DNA of 42,514 nucleotides from Acidobacteriota bacterium (lineage in GTDB: Bacteria; Acidobacteriota; Blastocatellia; Pyrinomonadales; Pyrinomonadaceae): positions 1 through 42,514 of the forward strand of contig JAKQII010000309.1 of assembly GCA_029557535.1 (NCBI GenBank). Reading direction: 5' to 3'. Positions 16,083-39,021 of this stretch are shown one piece after another (the stretch's first letter is position 1; each line of letters opens with the position of its first letter). The translations under genes and the position numbers were made by a program. The notes below the pieces were generated by a model. It saw only the letters and a program-made list of their open reading frames with translations. It was not told the origin of the DNA and did no database searches.

Positions 16083-18275
<2,193 letters not shown>

Positions 18276-21760: not shown

Positions 21761-23053
21761 ATGCCGCTAAATGTCAGAAGGTTTTGCACTTCGTTATTTT
21801 TAGTAGTATTTGGGTTTTTTACAATTTACGCGCAAACTCCGACTTCCGGTGATGTCATGCGCGGCAGGATATCGAAGGCAAAAGCCTTGATCGCCGTCAG
21901 AAATTACAATGGGGCGATTTATGAACTAGAGAACATCCGGCGCGAGACGGGAGATCAAACCGTCCACGGCGTCGTTAACGTTTTGCTCATGAACTGCTTC
22001 CTCGAGCAGGGAGACTACAAGCGCGCTCAGACATTTCTGTCGGATCTTTTCAACGCCATCAAATCCGGCAAACCGAACGCCGCGGCCAACTATTACGCGG
22101 CTGCCGGACAGGTTATCAAAGGGGCGAAAAACCAATCGGAACGATTCAAGTCGCTAGGTTTGTCGGTGTCTGACCGGAATCTGGAACCGTTGGCGGTCAC
22201 CGATCTCGAGAGCATGCGGCAAACGCTTGAAAAGGTGATCGAAAATTCGAAGGTCGTTGCCAAGGATCCGAAGCAGACCGCCAACGCGTTTGCATTGCTT
22301 GAAGAAGCGGGGAACGCCCGCGGTTTGCTTGCCCGGGACGATTTCGATTCGAAGCGCTGGAAGGACGAAGTTGCCGATTCGCGTGAGATGCTGGCGAATT
22401 CGTCGAGTACGGTCTTCAATGCGATGGGCGATACGCAACCGACGACCGTATCCCCGAATACGGTCGCTTCGAACAATCCCGTAGTTCCGACGCCGACGCC
22501 GATCAGCGAGCCGGTTAAGTCGGAGGAGAACAGGTCGGTCAAAACTCTCCCGGTTCCGGCCAATGAAGAAAAGTCAGAGCAAAAGGTCGAGATGAAACCG
22601 GTCCCGACGCGTGCCGGAAATACAGCGGCAAAATCTGACCCTCAGCCGCAAAAAGAGGCGTTGGCGAAGAAAGACCCCGAACCTCAGCCCGCCAACGACG
22701 TGCCGGTGACACCGAAGCGAGAGCGCCGCGTCGAGGAAAAAACGGATGCGCCGGCGGTTTCGACGAATTCGGACGGATCGATCGTCGTCGGATCGTTGCT
22801 CGAATATGCTGTTCAACGAAGCACGCCGGTTTATCCCGCGAATGCACGCTCGATGCGCCAGACCGGCGTTGTCAGGGTCGAGGTTTTGATCGACGAGAAC
22901 GGCCAGGTTGCGTCCGTACAGAACACATCCGGTCCGGTCCTTCTTCAGAACGCGGCCCGAGACGCCGTCCGCAAATGGAAATTCAAGCCTTTCGTGCGCG
23001 ACGGCCAGCCGGTAAAGGCGACCGGCTATCTGAGTTTCAATTTCAATTTGTAA
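21761..23053 (+). CDS. Exported protein with TonB C-terminal domain
   Basis: This 430-residue protein has a signal peptide (RRFCTSLFLVVFGFFTIYAQ), a helical region with TPR-like character (about 30-215, including YNGAIYELENIRRETGD), a proline/lysine/glutamate-rich low-complexity linker (about 225-345) and a TonB C-terminal domain at the end (PVYPANARSMRQTGVVRVEVLIDENGQV, ending WKFKPFVRDGQPVKATGYLSF). Such TonB-C proteins can contact outer-membrane receptors, but this one lacks an obvious N-terminal inner-membrane anchor, so it may be a periplasmic protein using the domain for another contact. AGGAGG (21748-21753) gives an excellent ribosome-binding site. An intrinsic terminator follows 30 bases after the stop. 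Confidence 0.83.
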   Translation: MPLNVRRFCTSLFLVVFGFFTIYAQTPTSGDVMRGRISKAKALIAVRNYNGAIYELENIRRETGDQTVHGVVNVLLMNCFLEQGDYKRAQTFLSDLFNAIKSGKPNAAANYYAAAGQVIKGAKNQSERFKSLGLSVSDRNLEPLAVTDLESMRQTLEKVIENSKVVAKDPKQTANAFALLEEAGNARGLLARDDFDSKRWKDEVADSREMLANSSSTVFNAMGDTQPTTVSPNTVASNNPVVPTPTPISEPVKSEENRSVKTLPVPANEEKSEQKVEMKPVPTRAGNTAAKSDPQPQKEALAKKDPEPQPANDVPVTPKRERRVEEKTDAPAVSTNSDGSIVVGSLLEYAVQRSTPVYPANARSMRQTGVVRVEVLIDENGQVASVQNTSGPVLLQNAARDAVRKWKFKPFVRDGQPVKATGYLSFNFNL

Positions 23054-23083
23054 GTTGTCCGGTCACAACGTCATTGTCATTAT

Positions 23084-23114
23084 CCGCCTGAGTTGCATCA
23101 GGCGGTTTTTTTTT
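23084..23114 (+). terminator. Intrinsic terminator after the TonB-C gene
   Basis: CCGCCTGA (23084-23091), loop gttgca, TCAGGCGG (23098-23105), then nine T residues. This is a textbook rho-independent terminator. It separates the TonB-C gene from the respiratory operon, whose promoter begins seven bases later. Confidence 0.95.
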
Positions 23115-23120
23115 GAAAGG

Positions 23121-23161
23121 TGATTCAAATCATATTTGTCGCCCGCGCAGCCTAATAAAAT
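23121..23161 (+). promoter_or_regulatory. FNR/CRP-type binding site and -10 box of the respiratory operon
   Basis: TGAT, tcaa, ATCA (23121-23132) is a perfect FNR-type core (consensus TTGATnnnnATCAA; outer bases here are g and t). Its centre is 23126.5. A -10 box TAAAAT lies at 23156-23161, which places the expected start at 23168, exactly 41.5 bases from the site centre. That is the spacing of a class II activated promoter, and no good -35 is present, as expected. The leader to the first ATG is about 33 bases. Confidence 0.68.
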
Positions 23162-23200
23162 GCTTAGCAGTTTTCCGACCATTGCAGACAACAAAACGTC

Positions 23201-25117
23201 ATGCTGCCGCTCAAGGTTAAAATTCCGGACGAGGGCTACCACGGGGATCTCATCTCGTGCCAGGTCGCATGTCCAGTCCATACGGACGCGCGCGGGTACA
23301 TCCGCGCGATCGCCGAAGGGCGTTTTGAAGAAGCTTATCTGATCGCCCGCGGGCCGAATCCGTTCGCGTCGATCTGCGGACGCATCTGCGGCGCGCCGTG
23401 TGAGATCGCATGCCGCCGCGGCAAAGTGCCGAAGGTCGATGACGACGGTTTCTTTGTCGGGCAGGACCGCCCGGTTTCCATCCGAGCGCTGAAGCGCTTT
23501 GTCTGCGACCGATTCGGACCGGATTCCGATCCGCCGGATGAAGTTTTGGAAAAAGTCAAGAATTTTGTGCCGCCGATCGCAGCCGATGCTGATGAGATGG
23601 CGGCGATTTTGCGTTCTGCCGTCGACGGTCGACTCAAACTGGCCGACGGCCAAAAGGTTGCCGTTATCGGCGCCGGGCCGGCCGGACTTTCGGCCGCGCA
23701 CGATCTGGCGCTCCTTGGATTTCGGCCGACGGTCTTCGAGACCGAGCCCGTTGCCGCCGGTATGCTGGCAGTCGGCGTTCCCGCCTACCGGCTTCCCCGC
23801 GGGCTGATCAGGCAAGAGGTCGCCGTCATCGAGGCCCTTGGTGTGGAGATCAAATGCGGCGTCACCGTCGGCGGCGATATCAGTTTCAAGAAGCTCAGAA
23901 CAGATTTCGATGCGGTGCTGATCGCCGTCGGCGCCAAATCGTCGCGCGGCCTCGGCCTTGAAGGCGAGAACGGGCCCGGCGTTCTTGGCGGGGTCGACCT
24001 GCTCCGGGCCGTCTCGTTGGGCGAACCGATCGAGGTCGGGGACGGAGTTGTCGTGATTGGCGGGGGCAACGTCGCCTACGACGTCGCACGAACCGTCGTC
24101 CGCCAGATTGCGCTCGACACCGCGCGTACCGCGGCCCGGCTTGCCGGAACCTCCCACGTCACTCTCGTTTCGCTCGAGAGCACCGAAGAAATGCCGGCCG
24201 ACACGATCGAGATCGTCGAAGGCGACGAAGAAGGCATCGAACGCCGGAACGGATGGGGCCCGCAGCGTATCGTTCGCGATTCCTCGGGCAGGGTGACGGG
24301 CGTCGAGTTCCGCCGTTGTCTCCGGGTCTTTGACGATCAGCGTCGGTTTGCTCCGGTGTATGACGACCGGCAGACGATCACGGTCGCCTGCGATACGGTC
24401 CTTCTGGCGGTCGGACAAACACCGGTGCTTTCGTTCCTCGACGGCTCCGACGTCGAGCGCTTGCCGAACGGCTGGCTCAAGATCGACGGCGAGACCCAGG
24501 AAACGACCGGTCGGAACGTGTTTGTCGCCGGCGACCTCGCGCACGGGACGCGGCTGCTGATCGACGCGGTTGCGTCCGGAAAATCCGCTGCCCGCCGGAT
24601 ATATGAAACGCTGACGGGCGAACGCCTTGAGCCGTATGCGCTGACCAAGCATATCGTTCTCGAACGTTACGCTCGCGAGCGCGGGTACGAATCGGTGCGC
24701 CGCGTTCCGGTTCCCGTAATACATCCCGAGGAACGACTCGAACACCCCGAAAATGTCGTCGAATCGGGTTACACCGAGGCGCAGGCGCGCTGCGAAGCGT
24801 CGCGATGTCTCGACTGCGGCGTGACGCCGGTCTTCGACGGTTCGCGCTGCGTCCTTTGCGGCGGGTGCGTCGACGTTTGTCCGACAAGCTGTCTCAAGAT
24901 CGTGTCGCTCGACGCCATCGAATTCGAGAGCGATGTGTCGCAGCTCTTCGAACGGACGTTCGGCGATCGACCGGACCTTGGTGAAAACTCGGCGATCCTC
25001 AAGGACGAGGACCGCTGTATCCGCTGCGCACTGTGCGAGAACCGTTGCCCGACGGATGCGATCACCATGGAGCGCGTCACATTCTCGACCGTGTGGCGCA
25101 ACCCCAGAGCACTATGA
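23201..25117 (+). CDS. GltD-like flavo-Fe-S oxidoreductase with C-terminal double ferredoxin domain
   Basis: This 638-residue protein resembles the small subunit of glutamate synthase fused to a ferredoxin. The N-terminal Fe-S region has Cys20, Cys24, Cys59, Cys63, Cys67 and Cys71. Then come an FAD site (VIGAGPAGLSAAHD, about residue 155) and an NAD(P)-binding site (VVVIGGGNVAYDVA, about 285). The C terminus adds CVLCGGCVDVCP (about 550) and CIRCALCENRCP (about 606), two [4Fe-4S] clusters. It has no glutamate synthase partner here; instead it overlaps the Rieske gene by four bases (ATGA). Similar flavoproteins accompany Rieske/cytochrome b complexes of anammox bacteria, where a link between quinone and NAD(P) has been proposed. 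By analogy it may feed or drain electrons on the cytoplasmic side. No signal peptide is seen. Function is inferred from context. Confidence 0.85.
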   Translation: MLPLKVKIPDEGYHGDLISCQVACPVHTDARGYIRAIAEGRFEEAYLIARGPNPFASICGRICGAPCEIACRRGKVPKVDDDGFFVGQDRPVSIRALKRFVCDRFGPDSDPPDEVLEKVKNFVPPIAADADEMAAILRSAVDGRLKLADGQKVAVIGAGPAGLSAAHDLALLGFRPTVFETEPVAAGMLAVGVPAYRLPRGLIRQEVAVIEALGVEIKCGVTVGGDISFKKLRTDFDAVLIAVGAKSSRGLGLEGENGPGVLGGVDLLRAVSLGEPIEVGDGVVVIGGGNVAYDVARTVVRQIALDTARTAARLAGTSHVTLVSLESTEEMPADTIEIVEGDEEGIERRNGWGPQRIVRDSSGRVTGVEFRRCLRVFDDQRRFAPVYDDRQTITVACDTVLLAVGQTPVLSFLDGSDVERLPNGWLKIDGETQETTGRNVFVAGDLAHGTRLLIDAVASGKSAARRIYETLTGERLEPYALTKHIVLERYARERGYESVRRVPVPVIHPEERLEHPENVVESGYTEAQARCEASRCLDCGVTPVFDGSRCVLCGGCVDVCPTSCLKIVSLDAIEFESDVSQLFERTFGDRPDLGENSAILKDEDRCIRCALCENRCPTDAITMERVTFSTVWRNPRAL

Positions 25118-25593
25118 CCACGAAACCTGGAAATGAAGTATCGAGATTCGATCCCGAGCCGATCCCGCGGCGGGATTTCTTGGGACTCGCTGCGATCGCG
25201 ACGACCGCCGTGACGTTTCTTTTCTCGCTTTTCGGGATGCTCAAACTTCCGAAAGCGGCCGTTTCGGCATCACCGGCGAAAAAGTTCAACGTCACGCTGC
25301 CCGACGCGCTTGCGGCCGGCGAAGCGTACGTGCCGCCGGGCCGGAATGTCGCGGTCTTTCGCGACGCGGACGGCGTGTTCGCGATCTCGACCGTCTGCAC
25401 GCATCTTGGCTGCATCGTCAAAACAAGCAAGGAGGGCTTCGACTGCCCGTGCCACGGTTCCGGATTCGCGGCCGACGGAACGGTTCGGAAGGGACCCGCG
25501 CCGAAGCCTCTGCCGTGGATAAAGGTCACGAAAAGCGGATCGGCTTATGTGGTCGACGAGGAGAATACCGTTCCCGCCGGAACGAAGGTGTGA
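25114..25593 (+). CDS. Rieske [2Fe-2S] protein of a bc-type complex
   Basis: This 159-residue Rieske subunit takes one electron from quinol at the outer face of the membrane. Cluster ligands: Cys95 and His97 (CTHLGC) and Cys111 with His114 (CPCHGSGF); Cys100 and Cys113 form the structural disulfide. The N terminus IPRRDFLGLAAIATTAVTFLFSLFG is a twin-arginine signal anchor, as usual for Rieske proteins. The start at 25114 overlaps the upstream stop (ATGA), which indicates translational coupling. An earlier in-frame start would lie inside the flavoprotein gene. Cytochrome b follows after two bases. Confidence 0.95.
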   Translation: MTTKPGNEVSRFDPEPIPRRDFLGLAAIATTAVTFLFSLFGMLKLPKAAVSASPAKKFNVTLPDALAAGEAYVPPGRNVAVFRDADGVFAISTVCTHLGCIVKTSKEGFDCPCHGSGFAADGTVRKGPAPKPLPWIKVTKSGSAYVVDEENTVPAGTKV

Positions 25594-25595
25594 AT

Positions 25596-27143
<1,548 letters not shown>

Positions 27144-27155
27144 CGGAGGTCCTAA

Positions 27156-28811
27156 ATGAACAAGAATAAATACCTTCTGTTGATATCTAGCGCGGGCGTC
27201 CTGCTGCTGCTCGTGATCGCCGCCGTCTCTGAGAACTTCTTCAAGGAATGGCACGGCATTCAGGCCTCGGCGAAGAATCCGGAGGGGGCGATCGAATCCA
27301 GGCTCCGGCAGGTCGTCAATCCGAATCTGAGGACGGCCGACCGGTGTGTAACATGTCATGTCGGGATGGCTCCCGGCGAACAGATCGCGTCGTCGCTTAA
27401 GGTCGCCGCGGCTCACAAACCGGTCTTTCACTCGCCGTCCGAGATGGGCTGTACCGTCTGCCACGGCGGACAAGGCCTCGCCACGACGCGTGATGACGCA
27501 CACGGCACGGTTGCATTCTGGACCGAACCGATGTTGCCGGCGAAATACGCATACGCCGGTTGCGGCACCTGCCACACGCCGCTCGGCGTCCCGACGTCAG
27601 GCGTGCTGGCGAACGCCCGCAAATCGTTTGAGCGCCTCGATTGCTACGCGTGCCATCGCGTCGATGGACGGGGCGGAACTATTCGGGTCGGCGGCGACGT
27701 CACCGGAATGGAAGGCCCCGACCTGTCGGCGACCGGGATCAAGGGCTACAACGCCGAGTGGTACGTGGGCCACGTCGCGAAAATAGCAAGCAACGAGGCC
27801 TGGAAGAACGCCTTTCGTGAGATCCCCGACCATGAGCGTGCGGCGCTCAAGGTCTTTCTCGACACCCGCATGGGTGCCTCGCGACTGGTCGAGGCAAAGG
27901 CCGAATTCAATACGCTCGGTTGCGCCGGTTGTCACAAGGTCGGTAATTTCGGCGGGGATGCCGGCGTCGATCTTTCGCTTTCGGGATTCAAGGACCCGAA
28001 TCAGGTCAGTTTCGCGAACGTTCCGGGCGAACACAAACTCGAGAACTGGATCAAGCAGCATTTCAGGTCGCCCGTTTCGACCGTTTCCGGCTCGCAAATG
28101 CCCGCCCTTGGCTTGAAGGAAGATCAGATCGATCTGCTGACGATGTACGTCCTATCGCTTCGCCGACGAACGCTCCCGGACGTTTACCTGCCGAAGGACC
28201 GCGTGCGCGCGATGCGGTTCGGGGCACGCGAATTCGTTGCCGATGGCGAAGGAATCTACGCCGCGGTTTGCACCGCGTGTCACGGGGCGTCGGGGGGCGG
28301 AACTCGGTTTCCGGGACTCGTTCCGAACCCATCGATCACAAATCCTGACTTCCTCGAACTCGCGTCCGACGAATTCATCGCGCAAACCATCATCAAGGGC
28401 CGTTCGGGCCGTCCGATGCTCGCCTGGGGCGAGCGCGAGAACGGACTTTCGGCCGACGAAGTGGCGGCGCTCGTCGCCTACATCCGCAAGCTTGGCGGCG
28501 GCGTTCAGGCAAAGCCCGACCCGCTTCCGAGGATCTGGGCAAAAGGCGATACGACCAGCGGCGGGCGGCTCTATACGGCAAACTGCGCCGGTTGTCACGG
28601 AGCTCTCGGTGAGGGGCGTGACGGGCCGGCGATCGGAAACAAGCCATTTCTCGACATCGTTTCCGACACGTATCTCACGGAAACCATATCGCGAGGACGG
28701 CGCGGAACGACGATGCAGGGATTTGCCACAGGATCGGTGATCCGACGATCACTGACACCATCAGAGATCGAGGCGATAGTCGTGTACCTCCGCAGCATCG
28801 GTACGAAATAG
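27156..28811 (+). CDS. Heptaheme c-type cytochrome, membrane-anchored
   Basis: This 551-residue protein has a single N-terminal hydrophobic segment (YLLLISSAGVLLLLVIAAV), which anchors or exports it, and seven CxxCH haem-binding motifs: Cys64-His68, Cys99-His103, Cys136-His140, Cys163-His167, Cys256-His260, Cys372-His376 and Cys477-His481. The first four lie within about 100 residues, like small multihaem modules; the last two sit in separate monohaem cytochrome c domains, each with a downstream Met that could be a sixth ligand (RPMLAWG, TTMQGFA). It lies between cytochrome b and the molybdoenzyme genes and is the natural electron wire between them in the periplasm. This place is taken by NarI in cytoplasmic-facing nitrate reductases. 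Confidence 0.92.
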   Translation: MNKNKYLLLISSAGVLLLLVIAAVSENFFKEWHGIQASAKNPEGAIESRLRQVVNPNLRTADRCVTCHVGMAPGEQIASSLKVAAAHKPVFHSPSEMGCTVCHGGQGLATTRDDAHGTVAFWTEPMLPAKYAYAGCGTCHTPLGVPTSGVLANARKSFERLDCYACHRVDGRGGTIRVGGDVTGMEGPDLSATGIKGYNAEWYVGHVAKIASNEAWKNAFREIPDHERAALKVFLDTRMGASRLVEAKAEFNTLGCAGCHKVGNFGGDAGVDLSLSGFKDPNQVSFANVPGEHKLENWIKQHFRSPVSTVSGSQMPALGLKEDQIDLLTMYVLSLRRRTLPDVYLPKDRVRAMRFGAREFVADGEGIYAAVCTACHGASGGGTRFPGLVPNPSITNPDFLELASDEFIAQTIIKGRSGRPMLAWGERENGLSADEVAALVAYIRKLGGGVQAKPDPLPRIWAKGDTTSGGRLYTANCAGCHGALGEGRDGPAIGNKPFLDIVSDTYLTETISRGRRGTTMQGFATGSVIRRSLTPSEIEAIVVYLRSIGTK

Positions 28812-28850: not shown

Positions 28851-31800
28851 ATGAGCAAACAAATCAACAGACGCGAGTTTTTGGCAACGATTTCGGCGGC
28901 AGGTTTCGGCGCACTCGTCGCATCGACGAAGGCCTGGGGGCTTGAGGCGATCACGAACCCGCTTGGGGTTTATCCGAACCGCGACTGGGAAAAGGTCTAT
29001 CGCGATCTTTGGGCCTACGACTCGAAATTCACGTTCACGTGCGCTCCGAACGATACGCATAATTGTCTGCTCAACGCGTACGTCCGCCAGGGCGTGATCA
29101 CGCGCATCGGGCCGTCGATGCGTTACGGCGAGGCGACCGATCTTGCCGGCAACAAGGTCACGCACCGCTGGGATCCGCGCGTTTGCCAGAAAGGGCTGGC
29201 GTTGACGCGTCGCTTTTATGGTGACCGCCGCGTCAATCAGACGATGGTCCGCGCCGGGTTCAAACGTTGGTATGACGAAGGCTTCCCGCGCGGGAGCGAC
29301 GGTCGTCCCGACGAAAGCTACTTTCAGCGGGCCCGCGACGAATGGGTCCGAATGTCGCATGACGAGGCCGCCATGATCGTCGCCGCCGCGCTCAAGAACA
29401 TCGCCGAGACCTACACGGGCGACGAGGGGAAGCGCCGTTTGAAGGAACAACATTACGACGAGGCGACGATCGAGGCGACCGGAGGCGTCGGAACGCAGGT
29501 CTTGAAGTTCCGCGGCGGCATGCCACTGCTCGGTATTACGCGGGTTTTCGGAATGTACCGATTCGCCAATTCGATGGCGCTGCTCGACGCCAAGATCCGC
29601 GGTGTCGGTCCCGATCAGGCCATTGGCGGCAAGGGATTCGACAATTACTCGTGGCATACGGACCTCCCGCCGGGCCATCCGATGGTGACGGGACAACAGA
29701 CCGTCGAGTTCGACCTGAGCTCGGTCGAACATGCGAAAACGCTTGTTGTCTGGGGCATGAACTGGATTACGACGAAGATGCCAGACGCGCACTGGCTGAC
29801 CGAAGCCCGCGTCAAGGGAACGAAGATCGTTGTCATCGCCTGCGAGTACTCGGCGACGGCGACGAAGGGCGACGATGTCGTTGTCGTCCGGCCGGGAACG
29901 ACCCCCGCGCTCGCCCTGGGATTTGCGAACGTCATCATGCGCGACAAGCTCTACGACGACAAATACATCCGCGAATGGACCGATTTTCCGATCCTCGTGC
30001 GGATGGACAGTCTCAAATATCTCAAGGCGTCGGACGTATTCGGATCCGTCCCTGCCGAACTGAAGTCAACGTTTCTCGTGCGCGAAGGCGAGAAGGAACC
30101 GCCGCCCGCGAAGCAAACGACCCAAAACGTCGTCTCCGAAAAGCTCCGCAACGAATGGGGTGATTACGTTGTTTGGAATGCGAAAACGGGGACGCCCGAA
30201 GCCCTCAACCGCGATCAGATAGGAAAGAACTCGAAAACCGCCGACGCCCAACTCGAAGGCGCGGTCGAGGTCACGCTCGCCGACGGTACCAGGGTCAAAT
30301 GCCGTCCGGTCTTTGATCTGATCAAGGAATACGCGGCGCACTTCGATCCGAAAACCGTCGAAGAGATCACCTGGGCGCCGGCCGCGGCGGTCGAACGACT
30401 GGCGAAGCACTTCGCGGCCGAACCCGGCACGACCCTTTTTGCGGTCGGCATGGGCCCGAATCAGTTCTTCAACAGCGACAATAAAGACCGCGATACGATC
30501 CTGCTCGCGGCGCTGACCGGAAACGTCGGCAAGATCGGCGGGAACATCGGATCGTACGCCGGCAACTACCGCGTCGCGCTTTTCAACGGCGCTCCGCAAT
30601 GGATCAACGAGAATCCGTTCGACATCGAACTCGACCCGGCGAAACCGGCAAGACCGAAGCAATACTGGAAGGCCGAGTCGGCACATTACTACAACCATGA
30701 GGACCACCCGCTCCGCGTCGGCAACAAACTGCTGACCGGCAAGACCCATATGCCGTGTCCGACGAAGTCGCTGTGGTTCGCGAACGCGAACTCGATCCTC
30801 GGGAACGTGAAATGGCATTACAACCAGGTGTTCAACGCACTGCCCCGGATCGAGATGATCGCCGTCAACGAATGGTGGTGGTCGACTTCGTGTGAGTGGG
30901 CGGACGTCGTTTTCGGCGTCGATTCGTGGGCCGAACTCAAACATCCGGACATGACCGCATCGGTTACCAATCCGTTCCTGCTTGTCTTCCCGAAGACGCC
31001 TATCGAACGCATTTTCAACACCTTGGGAGATATCGAGGTCTGTGCGCTCGTCTCGTCGAAACTCGCGGAACTGACCGGGGACCAGCGCTTTAATGATTAC
31101 TGGAAGTTCGTGCGCGAGGGCCGCACCGATATTCATCTGCAACGCATCCTCGACCACTCGACGAACACCAAAGGCTACAGGTTCGAGGATCTTCACGCCA
31201 AGGCGCTCGAGGGCGTACCGATGCTTATGAACAGCCGGACGACGCCAAAAAGCGTTGGCTACGATCAGCTTACGGATACGACACCGTGGTACACGAAGAG
31301 CGGCCGGCTCGAGTTCTATCGCGAAGAGGACGAGTTCATCGAGGCGGGCGAGAACCTGCCCGTCCACCGTGAACCGGTCGATTCGACCTTCTACGAACCG
31401 AACATCATCGTTGCTCCTCAGCACGAGGCGCTGCGGCCCTCGGGACCCGAAGCTTACGGGGCGAAACGCGATGACCTGTCCTGCGAGACGCGTTGCGGCC
31501 GCAATGTTGTCTACAGTTGGGAAGAGGCGAAGAAGACCGCGCACCCGCTGATGAAAGACGGCTTCAAGTTTGTCTTTCACACGCCCAAATACCGCCACGG
31601 ATCGCACACGACACCGATTGACACCGATATGGTTGCGGTTCTGTTCGGACCCTTCGGCGACATTTATCGCCGCGACAAACGCGCTCCGTTCGTGACCGAG
31701 GGTTATGTCGATATCAACCCTCTCGACGCGCAGGAGCTCGGCGTTGCCGACGGCGACTATGTCTGGATCGATCCCGATCCGGAGGACCGGCCGTTCCGCG

Positions 31801-32282
31801 GCTGGAAAGAACGCAAGGCGGATTATGAGGTCGCCCGACTTATCTGCCGTGCCAGGTATTATCCCGGAACGCCGCGCGGCGTGACACGCATGTGGTTCAA
31901 CATGTACGCGGCGACGCCCGGATCCGTGAAAGGCCAAAAGCAACGGGCCGATGGATTGGCGAAGAACGAAACGACCAATTATCAGGCGATGTTCCGTTCC
32001 GGATCGCATCAATCGGCGACGCGTGGCTGGCTCAAGCCGACCTGGATGACCGATTCGCTGGTCCGCAAAGGACTTTTCGGACAGGCGATCGGGAAGGGCT
32101 TCGCGCCTGATATCCATTGTCCGACGGGAGCCCCTCGCGAGTCATTCGTCAAGATAACTAAAGCCGAGCCCGGCGGCATCAACGGTGAGGGCTTGTGGCG
32201 TCCCGCACAGATCGGGATCCGTCCGAAGACCGAAAGCGACGCGATGAAGAAATATCTTTCCGGCGGTTTCTTGAACAGTTAA
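28851..32282 (+). CDS. Tat-exported molybdoenzyme catalytic subunit, NxrA/pNarG-like
   Basis: This 1143-residue protein belongs to the type II DMSO-reductase family and resembles catalytic subunits of periplasmic nitrite oxidoreductases (Nitrospira/anammox type) and haloarchaeal outward-facing nitrate reductases. A twin-arginine signal is present ([18 protein letters not shown]). The FS0 cluster region [11 protein letters not shown] (Cys64, Cys72) continues to Cys112 in [13 protein letters not shown]. The probable molybdenum ligand is Asp271 in [11 protein letters not shown], corresponding to the Asp in YNSDLPPASP of NarG. The two bis-MGD domains and the C-terminal beta-barrel domain are complete. 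Length agrees with NxrA (about 1145). It converts nitrate/nitrite on the outer face; direction is not decided by sequence, and other oxyanions are possible. Its Fe-S partner follows after 13 bases. Confidence 0.9.
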
Positions 32283-32295
32283 AAAGGAGAAAAAT

Positions 32296-33444
32296 ATGGC
32301 CCGCGTATACAATTGGCAACTCGGACGTGAAATGTCCTACTGGTATCCCGAAAGCAGAGCGAGCAAACAGTTCGCCGCCGTTTTCGACATCAACAAATGC
32401 ATCGCGTGTCAGACGTGCACGCTGGCGTGCAAGACGACGTGGACATCCGGGAAAGGCCAGGAATACATGCTTTGGAACAATGTCGAGTCGAAGCCCTACG
32501 GGTTCTATCCGCTTGCCTGGGACCTGAAACTGCTCGAGATGCTCGACGGACAGAAATGGAACGAAGGCGGCGAAAAGCCGGTTTATGAAGGCAGCACGAT
32601 CTTCGAGTCGGCACCCGCCGGCGAGCGTGTCATGGGATGGCGGCCGGAAGACGAGGATTACGCGTATCCGAACGTCGGAGAAGACGATTGCGCGGGCGGC
32701 GTCGACGGCGGGGCGAACATCTTCGAAACGCACGACATGGCGTGGTTCTACTATCTCGCAAGGATCTGCAATCACTGCACTTATCCGGGTTGCCTCGCAT
32801 CTTGCCCGCGCGGCTCGATCTACAAACGACCCGAAGACGGAATCGTGCTGGTGGATCAGGGCCGCTGCCGCGGATATCAGGAATGCGTCCGCGGATGTCC
32901 GTACAAAAAGGTCTTTTTCAACATGATGACGGGGACTTCCGAAAAGTGCATCGCTTGCTACCCGAAAATGGAGCAGGGGATCCAGCCGCAGTGTTTCGTC
33001 AATTGTATCGGGAAGATCAGGATGGCGGGATTCATCAACCCGCCCGACAAGGCAAATCCCGAAAACCCGATCGATTATCTCGTCCACGTCAAAAAGGTCG
33101 CGCTGCCGTTGTTCCCGCAGTTCGGTCTGGAACCGAACGTCTATTACATTCCGCCGATCCATGTTCCGACGTCGTTCACGAAACAGATGTTCGGACCGGG
33201 CGTCGACGCTGCCGTCAAAACCTATCGCGAGGCGGCGGCGAACAAGGATGACGATCTGACCGGGCTGCTCGGGCTTTTCGGTTCGAGCGAAATGTTAATG
33301 GAGCGCTGGAAACGTGTCGGCGACAAGATCATCGGGCTCGATGCGGCCGGAAAACAGATCGTCGACGTTCCGCTCAAGGAGCCCGTTGTCGAGCGCCCGG
33401 CTTTCGACAAGCTCTATCAGATCACGCGAACGAATTGCCCGTAA
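32296..33444 (+). CDS. Fe-S electron-transfer subunit, NxrB/NarH-like
   Basis: This 382-residue subunit carries electrons to or from the molybdoenzyme. It begins [20 protein letters not shown], close to the opening of NxrB and archaeal NarH. Four cysteine clusters are visible: [12 protein letters not shown] (about 35-46), [14 protein letters not shown] (about 158-171), [15 protein letters not shown] (about 194-208) and [20 protein letters not shown] (about 219-238). In the third, Tyr occupies a position held by Trp in NarH, replacing a Cys, which suggests a [3Fe-4S] cluster as in NarH. There is no signal peptide; export would occur with the Tat-targeted catalytic subunit. AAGGAG lies six to eight bases upstream of ATG 32296. 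Confidence 0.93.
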
Positions 33445-33482: not shown

Positions 33483-34331
33483 ATGAAATCAACGCTATTG
33501 ATCGCACTAATCGCTGTTATGATCGGAGCCGGCCCGGCTTGCCGGCGGGCGATCGTCTCGACGCCCGACGTTCAGGTCGTGTCCGGCCAGACGATCACGC
33601 TCGATGCGAACGCTTCGGTTTGGAACCCGGTGCCGGTCCATCTGTCGAAGCAGATCCAACAAGATCTGGTCGAACCGCGGCTAATGGAGGCCTCGACGCA
33701 GGAAGTCCAGATCCAGGCGATATCCGACGGAAATTTGATCGCTTTCAGGATCGAATGGCTCGACGATACGCAGGACGATCTGCCGGGTCCCGCGAGGTTC
33801 ATGGACGGTGTCGCCGTTCAACTTCCGGCTAAGATCGATCCAAACGTGCCGGCGCCGCAGATGGGCGAAACCGGCAAATCGGTCGAGATCTCGTACTGGC
33901 GGGCCGACTGGCAGGCGGTCGTCGATGGTCGCGCCGATGACATTACGAGCATTTATCCGAACGCCAAGCCGGACCATTATCCGTTCAACGCGAAACCGTT
34001 GGAGAACAATCCCGACGCACAGGCGCAGGCGGCTCAGCGATACTCGCCGGCGCGGGCGCTTGGGAACGGACGCGAAGGTCCGCGCACGGAACCCGTCGAG
34101 GATCTGATCGCCGAAGGGCCGGGCACGCTCGCTCCGGGCCCGAATGCGTTCTCAAAAGGGAAGGGCGTGAGGACGCGGACAGGCTGGGCGGTCGTGATCA
34201 CGCGTCCGCTTCCGGCGGGATTTTCGAAAGAATCGCCCTCGCAGATCGCTTTTGCCGTCTGGCAGGGTTCGCACGACGAGACCGGTGCTAGGAAAATGAG
34301 GAGCGGTTGGGTAAATTTGTTGATGAAATGA
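33483..34331 (+). CDS. Haem b-binding gamma subunit-like lipoprotein (NxrC / ethylbenzene dehydrogenase gamma type)
   Basis: This 282-residue exported protein looks like the gamma subunit found with type II DMSO-reductase enzymes (EbdC, DdhC, SerC, NxrC), which binds one haem b through Met and Lys. The N terminus MKSTLLIALIAVMIGAGPAC ends in a Cys consistent with a lipoprotein (the lipobox is not ideal). The beta-sandwich pattern includes LIAFRIEWLDDTQDD and RFMDGVAVQLPAKI, then EISYWRADWQ, and WAVVITRPLP near the end, as in the family. Candidate haem ligands are the Met in RFMDG and a C-terminal Lys, not proven. The stop overlaps the next start (ATGA). ATG 33483 is chosen because an earlier start would precede the signal peptide with a polar leader. 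Confidence 0.8.
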   Translation: MKSTLLIALIAVMIGAGPACRRAIVSTPDVQVVSGQTITLDANASVWNPVPVHLSKQIQQDLVEPRLMEASTQEVQIQAISDGNLIAFRIEWLDDTQDDLPGPARFMDGVAVQLPAKIDPNVPAPQMGETGKSVEISYWRADWQAVVDGRADDITSIYPNAKPDHYPFNAKPLENNPDAQAQAAQRYSPARALGNGREGPRTEPVEDLIAEGPGTLAPGPNAFSKGKGVRTRTGWAVVITRPLPAGFSKESPSQIAFAVWQGSHDETGARKMRSGWVNLLMK

Positions 34332-34810
34332 CTTTACCTGCCAAGAATCTGAGCATCCTGCTGGATGTCCACACCGAGCTTGAGGAACTGTTCTTTGAAC
34401 ATCAGAAACGGCTGATCAGATTCGATTTTGTCGAAGCGCTCCGGTTGCTCGAACAGTATGAAGCGTCGATCCTGAAGCATATCGAGGACGAGAACACCCA
34501 TCTCCTGCCGATCTACGAAGAACGCGGCGAACAGCAGACGGGTGCGGCCGTTCAACTTTTTTACGATGATCACGAGCGTCTCAAGGCGCACCTTGTCCAG
34601 TTTCGCGAGGAGATCGAAAGTCTGATAACCGATCCCGCTCCCGACAAGAAACTGATCTGGCTGCTCGAGCGCGAAGCGTTCTTCAAGAAACTTTGTGATC
34701 ATCATGACATCCGCGAAACCCGGTTCCTTTACCCCGAGCTCGATCGGATCACGAGCGACGCCGAAAAGGCGGAACTTCTCGGGCGGGTGACTGAGAGCTT
34801 CGCTGACTGA
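34328..34810 (+). CDS. Hemerythrin/HHE-domain protein
   Basis: This 160-residue helical protein carries a hemerythrin-like HHE pattern expected to bind a di-iron centre: His15 (DVHTELEELF), His25, the pair in LKHIEDENTHLLPIYEE, the DDHERLKAH stretch, and DHHDIRETRFLYPEL in the last helix. Such proteins sense or bind oxygen or NO, or supply iron for Fe-S repair (YtfE type). It overlaps the upstream stop (ATGA), so its translation is tied to the haem subunit gene. Start ATG 34328 is chosen for that overlap. A protective or sensory role for the oxygen- and NO-sensitive complex is inferred from position only. Confidence 0.82.
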   Translation: MTLPAKNLSILLDVHTELEELFFEHQKRLIRFDFVEALRLLEQYEASILKHIEDENTHLLPIYEERGEQQTGAAVQLFYDDHERLKAHLVQFREEIESLITDPAPDKKLIWLLEREAFFKKLCDHHDIRETRFLYPELDRITSDAEKAELLGRVTESFAD

Positions 34811-34817
34811 AAACAAA

Positions 34818-35450
34818 ATGCGAAACGAAAGTAAAGTAAACGAACTTCTGCGGGAAGCTACCGAATGGCGGCTGATCGGATTGTTCTTCGAATGCCCCGA
34901 GGGTGAGTGGAAAAAGAACGTCGAAGGTCTCGCTGGCGAGGTCGCCGATGACAACCTCAGGAAGGCCGCGGAATTCTCCAAGGCGCAGGCGGGCGAGGGA
35001 CTCTACCATGCCATCTTCGGTCCGGGCGGCCCGGCCCCGGCGCGCGAGATCAGCTATCGCGACTGGGTTCAGCCCGGCTATTTGCTGTCTGAATTGTCGG
35101 CGTATTACGACGCGTTTTCCTATTCTCCCGCAACCATCGAAATCCCCGATCATATTGCGGTCGAGGCCGGCTTTATTTCGTATCTGCGGATGAAAGAAGC
35201 CTTTGCACTGATGCGCGGCGACGAGGAAGGCGCCGAAGTGACGGCGAGTGCGTCGCGCAAGTTCATTGACGAACACCTATCGAAGATATCCGAGCGGATG
35301 GCGAAATCGCTCGCCGAATCTGAGATCGATTATTTGGTGCTTGCCTCGGACGCGCTGTTCCGTCGCGTCGGCCCGGACAGGGACGCCCGGGTGAAAAAGA
35401 TCCTTCCGGTCCTATCGAACCCTGACGAAGAAGTCGAATGCTCGATGTAA
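34818..35450 (+). CDS. TorD/NarJ-family molybdoenzyme assembly chaperone
   Basis: This 210-residue all-helical protein matches TorD/DmsD/NarJ chaperones, which hold the apo-catalytic subunit and its Tat signal until the molybdenum cofactor is inserted. The opening NELLREATEWRLIGLFFECP and the family signature region EIPDHIAVEAGFISYLRMKEAFA (about residues 110-133) are visible. It lies seven bases after the hemerythrin gene and is last in the operon, matching the usual position for narJ-like genes next to narGH. It is cytoplasmic with no signal peptide. Confidence 0.9.
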   Translation: MRNESKVNELLREATEWRLIGLFFECPEGEWKKNVEGLAGEVADDNLRKAAEFSKAQAGEGLYHAIFGPGGPAPAREISYRDWVQPGYLLSELSAYYDAFSYSPATIEIPDHIAVEAGFISYLRMKEAFALMRGDEEGAEVTASASRKFIDEHLSKISERMAKSLAESEIDYLVLASDALFRRVGPDRDARVKKILPVLSNPDEEVECSM

Positions 35451-35487: not shown

Positions 35488-35805
35488 TCACTTCCGCCGC
35501 CGTCCAAGATCCCGTTCGACGATGATCTCGAGCATTGAACCGTCGTCATTCTCGTGAATCCTCGTGAAACCGATCCCGCCGCCAAGCGTCATCGAATCCG
35601 ACATTTCCCGCGGGATCGATATGGCAAGTGTCCGGTCGTCAAAGCTTGCCGCCAGCGATGAACCGCCGACCTCGAGCAGAAAGATCAGATCCATGCCCGA
35701 ACCGAACGAGCAGCTTTCACTAAGCGCGCCTTCAGAGACGAAACGCTCGATGTCTTCCTCGCTCAAGCGCAGTCTAACCGAATTGTGTTCGATCTTTAGT
35801 TTCAT
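35488..35805 (-). CDS. Small DUF7009-like protein
   Basis: This 105-residue protein opens MKLKIEHNSVRLRLSEEDIERF, a pattern I associate with the uncharacterised DUF7009 family, and has a beta-rich remainder (LIFLLEVGGSSLAASFDDRTLAISIPRE, then LEIIVERDLGRRRK). The C terminus looks shorter than in relatives I recall, which usually continue past a KDF-like motif. No catalytic motif is visible. ATG 35805 is preferred to an upstream in-frame ATG because the family starts MKL/MKI. It is convergent with the respiratory operon, sharing the hairpin in between. Function unknown. Confidence 0.6.
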   Translation of the reverse strand: MKLKIEHNSVRLRLSEEDIERFVSEGALSESCSFGSGMDLIFLLEVGGSSLAASFDDRTLAISIPREMSDSMTLGGGIGFTRIHENDDGSMLEIIVERDLGRRRK

Positions 35806-36106
35806 GCGATCACAATAGTTCATTGAACGCATTCAACTTATGATTGCGGTCATATTTATCCCAAATTACGCACTTAAGGAGAGACTTTGCCCGCGAATCT
35901 TCGCCAATCAACGCGATCAAGCAGACCGTGACCGTCGCCATTCGGTAAATGCTGGTAAAATTCAACCTATTAGAGTCTTTCCGACCAGCGATCTTCCGGT
36001 GAATCCACGGAAATTCGGGTTGATTCGCGAGAATTCGTGGGCAAACTCTCTAGCGCGTGATTCGGGTTCATCCTGACTTTTCCTGAAAAATGCTACTCTC
36101 GAATCC
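35806..36106. other. Gene-free 300-base region with a long-arm inverted repeat
   Basis: GAGACTTTGCCCGCGAAT (35881-35898) pairs with ATTCGTGGGCAAACTCTC (36033-36050), 16 of 18 positions, with about 134 bases between. The core GCCCGCGAA also occurs at 18285-18293. No real coding frame was found. The right edge holds the leader of the M20 peptidase gene, without a clear promoter. Confidence 0.5.
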
Positions 36107-37753: not shown

Positions 37754-38458
37754 ATGAAAATCGCCTTGATCGGACACGGCGCGATGGGAAGACTCATCGA
37801 GCGGCTTGCCGTCGAAAAGGGACATGAGATCGCGGTCGTCGTCGACGATGCGCAGTCGGCGTTTGCGGCGTCGGACCTTGCCGACCGTTTGCGCGGCGCA
37901 GACGTCGCCATCGACTTCACCGTTGCGACGGCTGTCCGACGAAACGTCGAGGCATGCGTCCTTGCGTCGGTTCCGTTGGTCGAAGGAACGACCGGATGGA
38001 ATGACGAACGATCTTCAATTCTTGAGATCATCGATCGCGAAAACGGAGCGTTCGTTTACGGGTCGAATTTCAGCGTCGGGGTGAATCTGTTTTTCAAGCT
38101 CGCCGATCACGCCGCTGAACTATTTTCGAAATTTGACGATTACGAGACGTTTATCGAAGAGCGCCACCATTCCCGCAAAAAGGACGCCCCGAGCGGAACC
38201 GCGCTGAAACTGAAAGATATTGTTGCGACGCACTACGGGGAAGGCTTTTCGGTCGCTGCGACCCGTGCCGGCGATATTCCGGGCACGCACATCGTCGGAT
38301 TCGACGCCGCTCCGGACACGGTTGAGTTAAGACACACGGCGCGATCACGCGAAGGCTTTGCGCGCGGCGCGATCGTCGCCGCCGAATGGATCGTCGGCCG
38401 AACCGGAATCTATGAGTTTTCGGATGTGATGGACGAGATACTATCAGGCGGACTGTGA
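37754..38458 (+). CDS. dapB: 4-hydroxy-tetrahydrodipicolinate reductase
   Basis: DapB reduces 4-hydroxy-tetrahydrodipicolinate with NAD(P)H in lysine and diaminopimelate synthesis. The 234-residue protein starts MKIALIGHGAMGRLIERLA (dinucleotide-binding GxGxxG variant), followed by DVAIDFTVATAV and EGTTGW (family motifs), SNFSVGVNLFF, and the catalytic and substrate-binding segment EERHHSRKKDAPSGTALKL with the HH pair and Lys. C-terminal GRTGIYEFSDVMDEIL matches the family. Slightly short (usual 240-270) but complete. ATG 37754 is preferred; an upstream frame runs through hairpin repeats. Its stop overlaps the GTG of the following regulator (GTGA). Confidence 0.95.
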   Translation: MKIALIGHGAMGRLIERLAVEKGHEIAVVVDDAQSAFAASDLADRLRGADVAIDFTVATAVRRNVEACVLASVPLVEGTTGWNDERSSILEIIDRENGAFVYGSNFSVGVNLFFKLADHAAELFSKFDDYETFIEERHHSRKKDAPSGTALKLKDIVATHYGEGFSVAATRAGDIPGTHIVGFDAAPDTVELRHTARSREGFARGAIVAAEWIVGRTGIYEFSDVMDEILSGGL

Positions 38459-39021
38459 ACTTCATCGATCATATTCGCACGTTCTTCCCGATCTCGGATG
38501 CCGCGGCCGAGGAATTGGTCTCCAAAAGCCGGCTTGCTTCGTTTTCGCGTCATTCTCTGCTCCACCGCGAAGGCGACGTCTGCAACGTTTTGTGGTTCGT
38601 CGAAAAGGGAATTGTCCGTTGGTACTACATCGATGAGGACGGACGCGACATTACCGACTGGTTCGCATCCGAGAATTCGTTCGTGACCGCTTTCGACAGC
38701 TTCTTTCAACGCAAGCCGAGCCGCTACTTCATCGAGACGCTTGAAGACTGCGATCTCTATTCGATGACGTACGGCGACCTTGAGTCGTCGTTCAACCGGT
38801 TCCCCGAGATCGACCGGCTGAGCAGAGTGATACTTCTCCAAATCCTCGAAGAGCAGCTCGCAAAGAACTCGGCGCTGCAGTTCCGCAAGGCCTCGCAGCG
38901 ATATCGTTTCATCATCGAGAAGCACCCTGACCTGCTCAGGAGGGTCTCCCTGGGCCACATTGCCTCTTACCTCGGCATCACGCAGGAAACCCTCAGCCGG
39001 ATTCGTGCGCGGCGATCGTAA
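38455..39021 (+). CDS. Crp/Fnr-family transcriptional regulator
   Basis: This 188-residue protein has a cyclic-nucleotide-binding-like beta-roll (about 20-115, SRHSLLHREGDVCNVLWFVEKGIVRWYY) and a C-terminal helix-turn-helix (VSLGHIASYLGITQETLSRIRARRS). The N-terminal Fe-S cysteines of FNR are missing (only two scattered Cys), so it is not an oxygen-sensing FNR. The recognition helix carries ETLSR, with Glu, Ser and Arg at the spacing FNR uses to read TTGAT (ETISR). The start is the GTG at 38455, overlapping the dapB stop. Effector unknown. Similar regulators are common in Bacteroidota and Acidobacteriota. It could bind the FNR-like box at 23121, but nothing in the sequence proves it. Confidence 0.85.
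   Translation: MNFIDHIRTFFPISDAAAEELVSKSRLASFSRHSLLHREGDVCNVLWFVEKGIVRWYYIDEDGRDITDWFASENSFVTAFDSFFQRKPSRYFIETLEDCDLYSMTYGDLESSFNRFPEIDRLSRVILLQILEEQLAKNSALQFRKASQRYRFIIEKHPDLLRRVSLGHIASYLGITQETLSRIRARRS

Follow-up and report, generated by a model that had tools for sequence, protein, structure and literature searches.

Nitrite oxidoreductase-type enzymes are reversible, and metagenomic genes of the NxrA type are commonly read as nitrite oxidation. At the class II promoters of Escherichia coli, FNR and CRP act from an operator centred at -41.5 that is accompanied by a poor -35 region and a good -10 box. In the DNR regulon of denitrifying proteobacteria (Rodionov 2005, PMC1274295), the activator lacks N-terminal Fe-S cysteines, is linked to nor genes and recognises a palindrome with a 4-base spacer, and dnrN/ric and nor genes are among the nitrogen-oxide regulon members. 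In the same comparison, loss of Arg180 was linked to loss of the G in the outer half-site.

These features bear on a respiratory operon in the window, by which we mean the whole 42,514-nucleotide stretch of Pyrinomonadaceae DNA analysed here (contig JAKQII010000309.1; Table 1). With a probability of roughly 0.78, we propose that the promoter of the operon depends on a class II activator, with an upstream palindrome as its operator, that a DNR-like protein would activate not only this NxrA-like operon but also norZ, nrfA, ric and a DUF7009 gene, and that the encoded enzyme would reduce nitrate. The proposal draws on the observed site, its spacing and conservation, a common set of targets, and the linkage and presence of the regulator gene.

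Table 1. Promoter elements and genes of the NxrA-like operon and of the adjoining DUF7009 locus (positions in the window)
Feature	Position	Strand	Remarks
Intrinsic terminator of upstream tonB-like gene	23084-23114	+	8-pair stem, T9 tail
Crp/Fnr-type palindrome GGTGATTCAAATCATA	23119-23134		core TGAT-N4-ATCA at 23121-23132; counterpart in 18/18 family promoters
-10 hexamer TAAAAT	23156-23161	+	22 bp behind 14-mer; predicted +1 at 23168; spacing to TAnnnT 22 or 23 bp in 18/18 promoters
GltD-like FAD/NAD(P) oxidoreductase with 4Fe-4S domains, first gene	23201-25117	+	Fer4_20, Pyr_redox_2, Fer4
Rieske iron-sulfur protein, Tat signal	25114-25593	+	sequence matches
Cytochrome b, bc1/b6 type	25596-27143	+	sequence matches
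Multihaem cytochrome c	27156-28811	+	sequence matches
NxrA-like molybdopterin subunit, Tat signal RREFL	28851-32282	+	full-length match to Kuenenia NxrA 7b04, E 3.7e-258
NxrB/NarH-like iron-sulfur subunit	32296-33444	+	sequence matches
Haem b gamma subunit (EB_dh / DMSO reductase II gamma)	33483-34331	+	sequence matches
Hemerythrin-like (HHE) protein	34307-34810	+	Pfam match below gathering score
NarJ/TorD-type chaperone	34818-35450	+	sequence matches
DUF7009 protein (PF22668), predicted regulon member	35488-35805	-	own operator copy at 35840-35853
Second palindrome copy ATGATTGCGGTCAT, before DUF7009 gene	35840-35853		TATTGT -10-like box at 35812-35817, 22 bp behind

Promoter geometry ahead of the operon

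The core of the palindrome, TGATTCAAATCA, is centred at 23126.5, and the transcription start implied by the TAAAAT box places this centre at -41.5, the exact geometry of a class II promoter. The hexamer at the -35 position (23133-23138) is TATTTG, which matches TTGACA at only one of six bases, and no two-box sigma-70 promoter was found in the region 22900-23300. The locus has the combination by which Crp/Fnr class II promoters are recognised, namely an operator centred at -41.5 or -42.5, a -10 box and a poor -35. The sequence-only reading of this DNA had placed TGAT-N4-ATCA and TAAAAT at these positions with 41.5 bases from site centre to start, and the sequence bears this out. Its assignment of a class II Crp/Fnr-type site without a good -35 is likewise upheld by the geometry, by the TATTTG hexamer and by the conservation in the family described below.

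The conserved element is longer than TGAT-N4-ATCA and extends over 23119-23134, with the family consensus (T)ATGAYYYRRRTCATA. The copy in the window departs from this consensus at its left edge, which is GG instead of TA, and in its left arm, which reads GTGAT instead of ATGAT. Directly 5' of the palindrome, the upstream TonB gene ends in an intrinsic terminator, and this predicted terminator insulates the operon promoter. TGAT-N4-ATCA is found once in the window against an expectation of 0.71, a chance level at which a single site by itself proves nothing, and most of the 152 copies found genome-wide need not be sites.

Conservation within the Pyrinomonadaceae

The operon was found in 21 of 119 Pyrinomonadaceae genomes, and the 18 homologous family operons with readable upstream DNA were used for comparison of the promoters. 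The palindrome (T)ATGAY-N4-RTCATA precedes a TAnnnT box in all 18, which represent fewer than 18 independent cases because some of the promoters are closely related (near-duplicates L010, L013, L020 and L066). The spacing between the two elements is 22 bp in 15 promoters and 23 bp in the other three, corresponding to 41.5 and 42.5 bases from centre to +1; for L014 and L015 the -10 box was taken as TAGCCT at 22 bp, and TATAGC is also present at 20 bp. The mean pairwise column identity over the 18 promoters amounts to 0.79 for the 14-mer, 0.29 and 0.27 for its flanks and 0.33 for the spacer. Across the family, operator and start codon are separated by distances that differ by more than 160 bp, whereas the -10 box stays at 22 or 23 bp. 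Conservation upstream of homologous operons, the check that had been suggested for this site, is thereby seen in 18/18 promoters of close relatives.

A chance match of the 12-mer was the null reading until the relatives were aligned, and the conservation could conceivably arise from something else, such as a terminator or RNA structure. The frequency expected for the bare 12-mer would fit such an origin, as would one locus (L017) where the palindrome sits inside a larger inverted repeat. It is contradicted by the conservation in 18/18 promoters with divergent flanks, by the fixed -10 spacing and by the recurrence of the palindrome before unrelated genes of one pathway, and we consider it hardly tenable.

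Other copies of the operator

Across 20 operon genomes, the motif ATGAYYYRRRTCAT has 43 occurrences, and a reversed control has 3. Outside the operon, copies in these genomes lie upstream of genes for RIC, MoaA, a MobA-like protein, NorZ, NrfA, a NapH-like protein and DUF7009; the remaining copies are mostly in coding DNA. The looser pattern ATGAYNNNNRTCAT has 33 matches in the window's own genome, and four intergenic matches precede norZ, nrfA, ric and the DUF7009 gene; all four are followed by TAnnnT at a spacing of 22-23 bp. One-mismatch matches in this genome are mostly coding and were left out of the counts.

The DUF7009 mRNA may be leaderless, as the transcription start predicted for the gene coincides with its ATG. 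In relatives, DUF7009 genes recur beside ric and the operator. The operator-bearing nrfA of the operon genomes adjoins a gene for a NarK-like transporter. In the relative G060 (L049, 1-3900), an operator precedes a NapH-like gene that adjoins a canonical narG cluster with an Rrf2-type regulator. A literature search found no description of a Pyrinomonadaceae TATGA regulon.

The candidate regulator

Two clear Crp/Fnr proteins are encoded in the window's genome. The first, here called DNR-like (C101:8913-9551; also L002:1492-2133), has a Crp/Fnr helix-turn-helix (HTH) and is without N-terminal FeS cysteines. Its gene adjoins norZ and a globin-like gene in this genome, and in 14 relatives it is located 3-11 kb downstream of the operon. 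At E<1e-30 the protein is present in 21/21 family operon genomes versus 28/98 others, a distribution that is confounded with phylogeny. Among the 41 genomes that have the operon without belonging to the family, none of which carries the family motif, no close orthologue was found; the best match has an E value of 1.5e-27 at about 30% identity. The recognition helix is TETTIR in the window's genome and [T/L]ETTIR in the family, with Glu181 and Arg185 kept and Arg180 lost; the absence of Arg180 makes the outer base A of the TATGA half-site consistent with this helix.

The second protein, an FNR-like paralogue (L001; C103:2788-3519), has an intact N-terminal C-x2-C-x8-C motif and a CRP-like helix, RETVTR. 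Were it the activator, the operon would answer to oxygen loss itself. The protein is present in 19/21 family operon genomes, and the GTGAT left arm in the window is nearer to a CRP-type half-site, as an FNR-like reading would have it. However, a helix of this kind predicts half-sites of the form TGTGA, and the outer G is A in the family consensus. The protein was also not found at E<1e-30 in the operon genomes G073 and G079, the former of which is 97% complete and yet carries the palindrome before its operon, and the FNR-like gene was not found linked to the operon. An activator of this kind seems quite improbable, and the best candidate is likely the DNR-like protein and not the cysteine-bearing FNR-like one. 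The sequence-only reading had named an FNR-, Dnr- or CRP-like binder; the Crp/Fnr type stands, and within it the DNR-like protein appears likelier than FNR or CRP from its neighbourhood, its presence and absence among genomes and its recognition helix. A third, Crp-like protein, encoded at 38455-39021, was rejected as the regulator, since no counterpart was found close to the operon at those loci of relatives that were tested. It has a cNMP-binding domain and a short HTH (...ITQETLSR), and its gene lies between dapB and a desaturase gene.

The half-site TATGA is not the TTGAT of FNR and DNR, and the operator differs from the DNR box TTGAT-N4-ATCAA in having A and not T as its outer base. The match of the DNR-like protein to the DNR structure (3dkw) has an E value of 1.6e-11, which is weaker than for several other Crp/Fnr proteins in the PDB, and no NCBIfam cut-off is reached. 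Genes of NO reduction and related functions (norZ, ric and nrfA) are preceded by the operator in the window's genome, and they would be under the control of the DNR-like protein. The regulator most likely acts like DNR by its predicted role, yet we do not class it as DNR, given that its predicted site differs from the TTGAT box and that a specific kinship to DNR is uncertain.

The enzyme and the direction of catalysis

The similarity of the large subunit to NxrA extends over its full length and exceeds that to NarG (E about 1e-35), and the narG NCBIfam model returns 141 bits against a cut-off of 1084 bits. By sequence comparison, the large subunit belongs with nitrite oxidoreductase NxrA and not with NarG, a classification that does not settle the catalytic direction. 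The operon could conceivably serve aerobic nitrite oxidation, with the Crp/Fnr element merely providing induction with nitrite or NO. The best structural match, the exported catalytic subunit and the general reversibility of such enzymes would all agree with this. Against it, the operator is common to nrfA, norZ, ric, moaA and mobA-like genes, and RuBisCO, the only carbon-fixation route searched, was not found in the window's genome. No copper nitrite reductase was found in this genome either, and with both enzymes missing, conversion of nitrate to ammonium fits better than autotrophic nitrite oxidation. We regard nitrite oxidation as unlikely; with an operator shared by nrfA and norZ, reduction of nitrate to ammonium is the favoured direction. 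The earlier preference for anaerobic nitrate reduction over nitrite oxidation gains support from a regulon of nitrogen-oxide reduction, and is tempered by an NxrA-like enzyme whose direction is predicted from its context.

The hemerythrin-like gene occurs in many, though not all, of the relatives' operons, and its product may bind NO or oxygen. A catalase-peroxidase-like gene is located upstream of the operon region, at 16104-18275.

Proposed mechanism and distribution

In the mechanism we propose, a dimer of the DNR-like protein most likely binds the TATGAY-N4-RTCATA palindrome centred at -41.5, where it would overlap the missing -35 and recruit sigma-70 RNA polymerase to the TAnnnT -10 box. 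Activation would most likely call for nitrogen oxides, probably NO, at low oxygen, and would induce norZ, nrfA, ric and DUF7009 along with the NxrA-like operon. The NxrA-like enzyme, fed by the Rieske/cytochrome b/c module of the operon, most likely reduces nitrate, and NrfA would carry nitrite on to ammonium. We hold the odds to be even for a broader proposal, that a lineage-specific nitrogen-oxide regulon of the Pyrinomonadaceae (TATGA, [T/L]ETTIR) controls an NxrA-type respiratory nitrate reductase feeding NrfA via Rieske/cytochrome b, and that DUF7009 is an unrecognised nitrogen-oxide-response protein.

The operon itself is more widespread, being found in Acidobacteriota and Planctomycetota beyond the family. 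The family operator was not found before the operons of Bryobacterales and Planctomycetota, where its absence is often explained by another reading frame that abuts the first gene. Differing palindromes stand at similar positions in operons outside the family (L166, L168, L199 and L194), ATGACGRCCRTCAT-like at three loci and TTGACCTAAGTCAA at one from Verrucomicrobiae, which suggests other Crp/Fnr specificities.

Comparison with known systems

An operator common to nitrite- and NO-reduction genes provides a sequence-based reason to read this Acidobacteriota clade as nitrate-reducing. It also offers a testable regulator, site and signal for the Pyrinomonadaceae, which are abundant and little cultured in soil and wastewater, would tie DUF7009 to the nitrogen-oxide response, and would add a new pair of half-site and recognition helix to the Crp/Fnr code. 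The CRP consensus is like the family AAATATGAYYYRRRTCATATTT except for the outer-arm G, which is A in the family.

Compared with the DNR regulon (PMC1274295), the half-site here is TATGAY instead of TTGAT and the predicted targets are the NxrA-like operon, nrfA and DUF7009; from its PDB matches, the DNR-like protein is also not specifically close in sequence to Pseudomonas DNR. The HcpR regulons (PMC1274295) similarly cover nrfHA and a nar operon outside the classic denitrifiers, with motif shifts that are tracked by residues 180 and 181, but their motifs are TTGAC, GTAAC and TGTGA and their core target is hcp. Kuenenia NxrAB(C) (PDB code: 7b04) shares with the present enzyme the full-length NxrA similarity, an Fe-S beta subunit, an EB_dh-type gamma subunit and a Tat-exported alpha subunit. 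Unlike the Kuenenia system, the operon described here adds a Rieske protein, cytochrome b, cytochrome c and a GltD-like flavoprotein, and is placed by its operator in a predicted regulon of nitrogen-oxide reduction.
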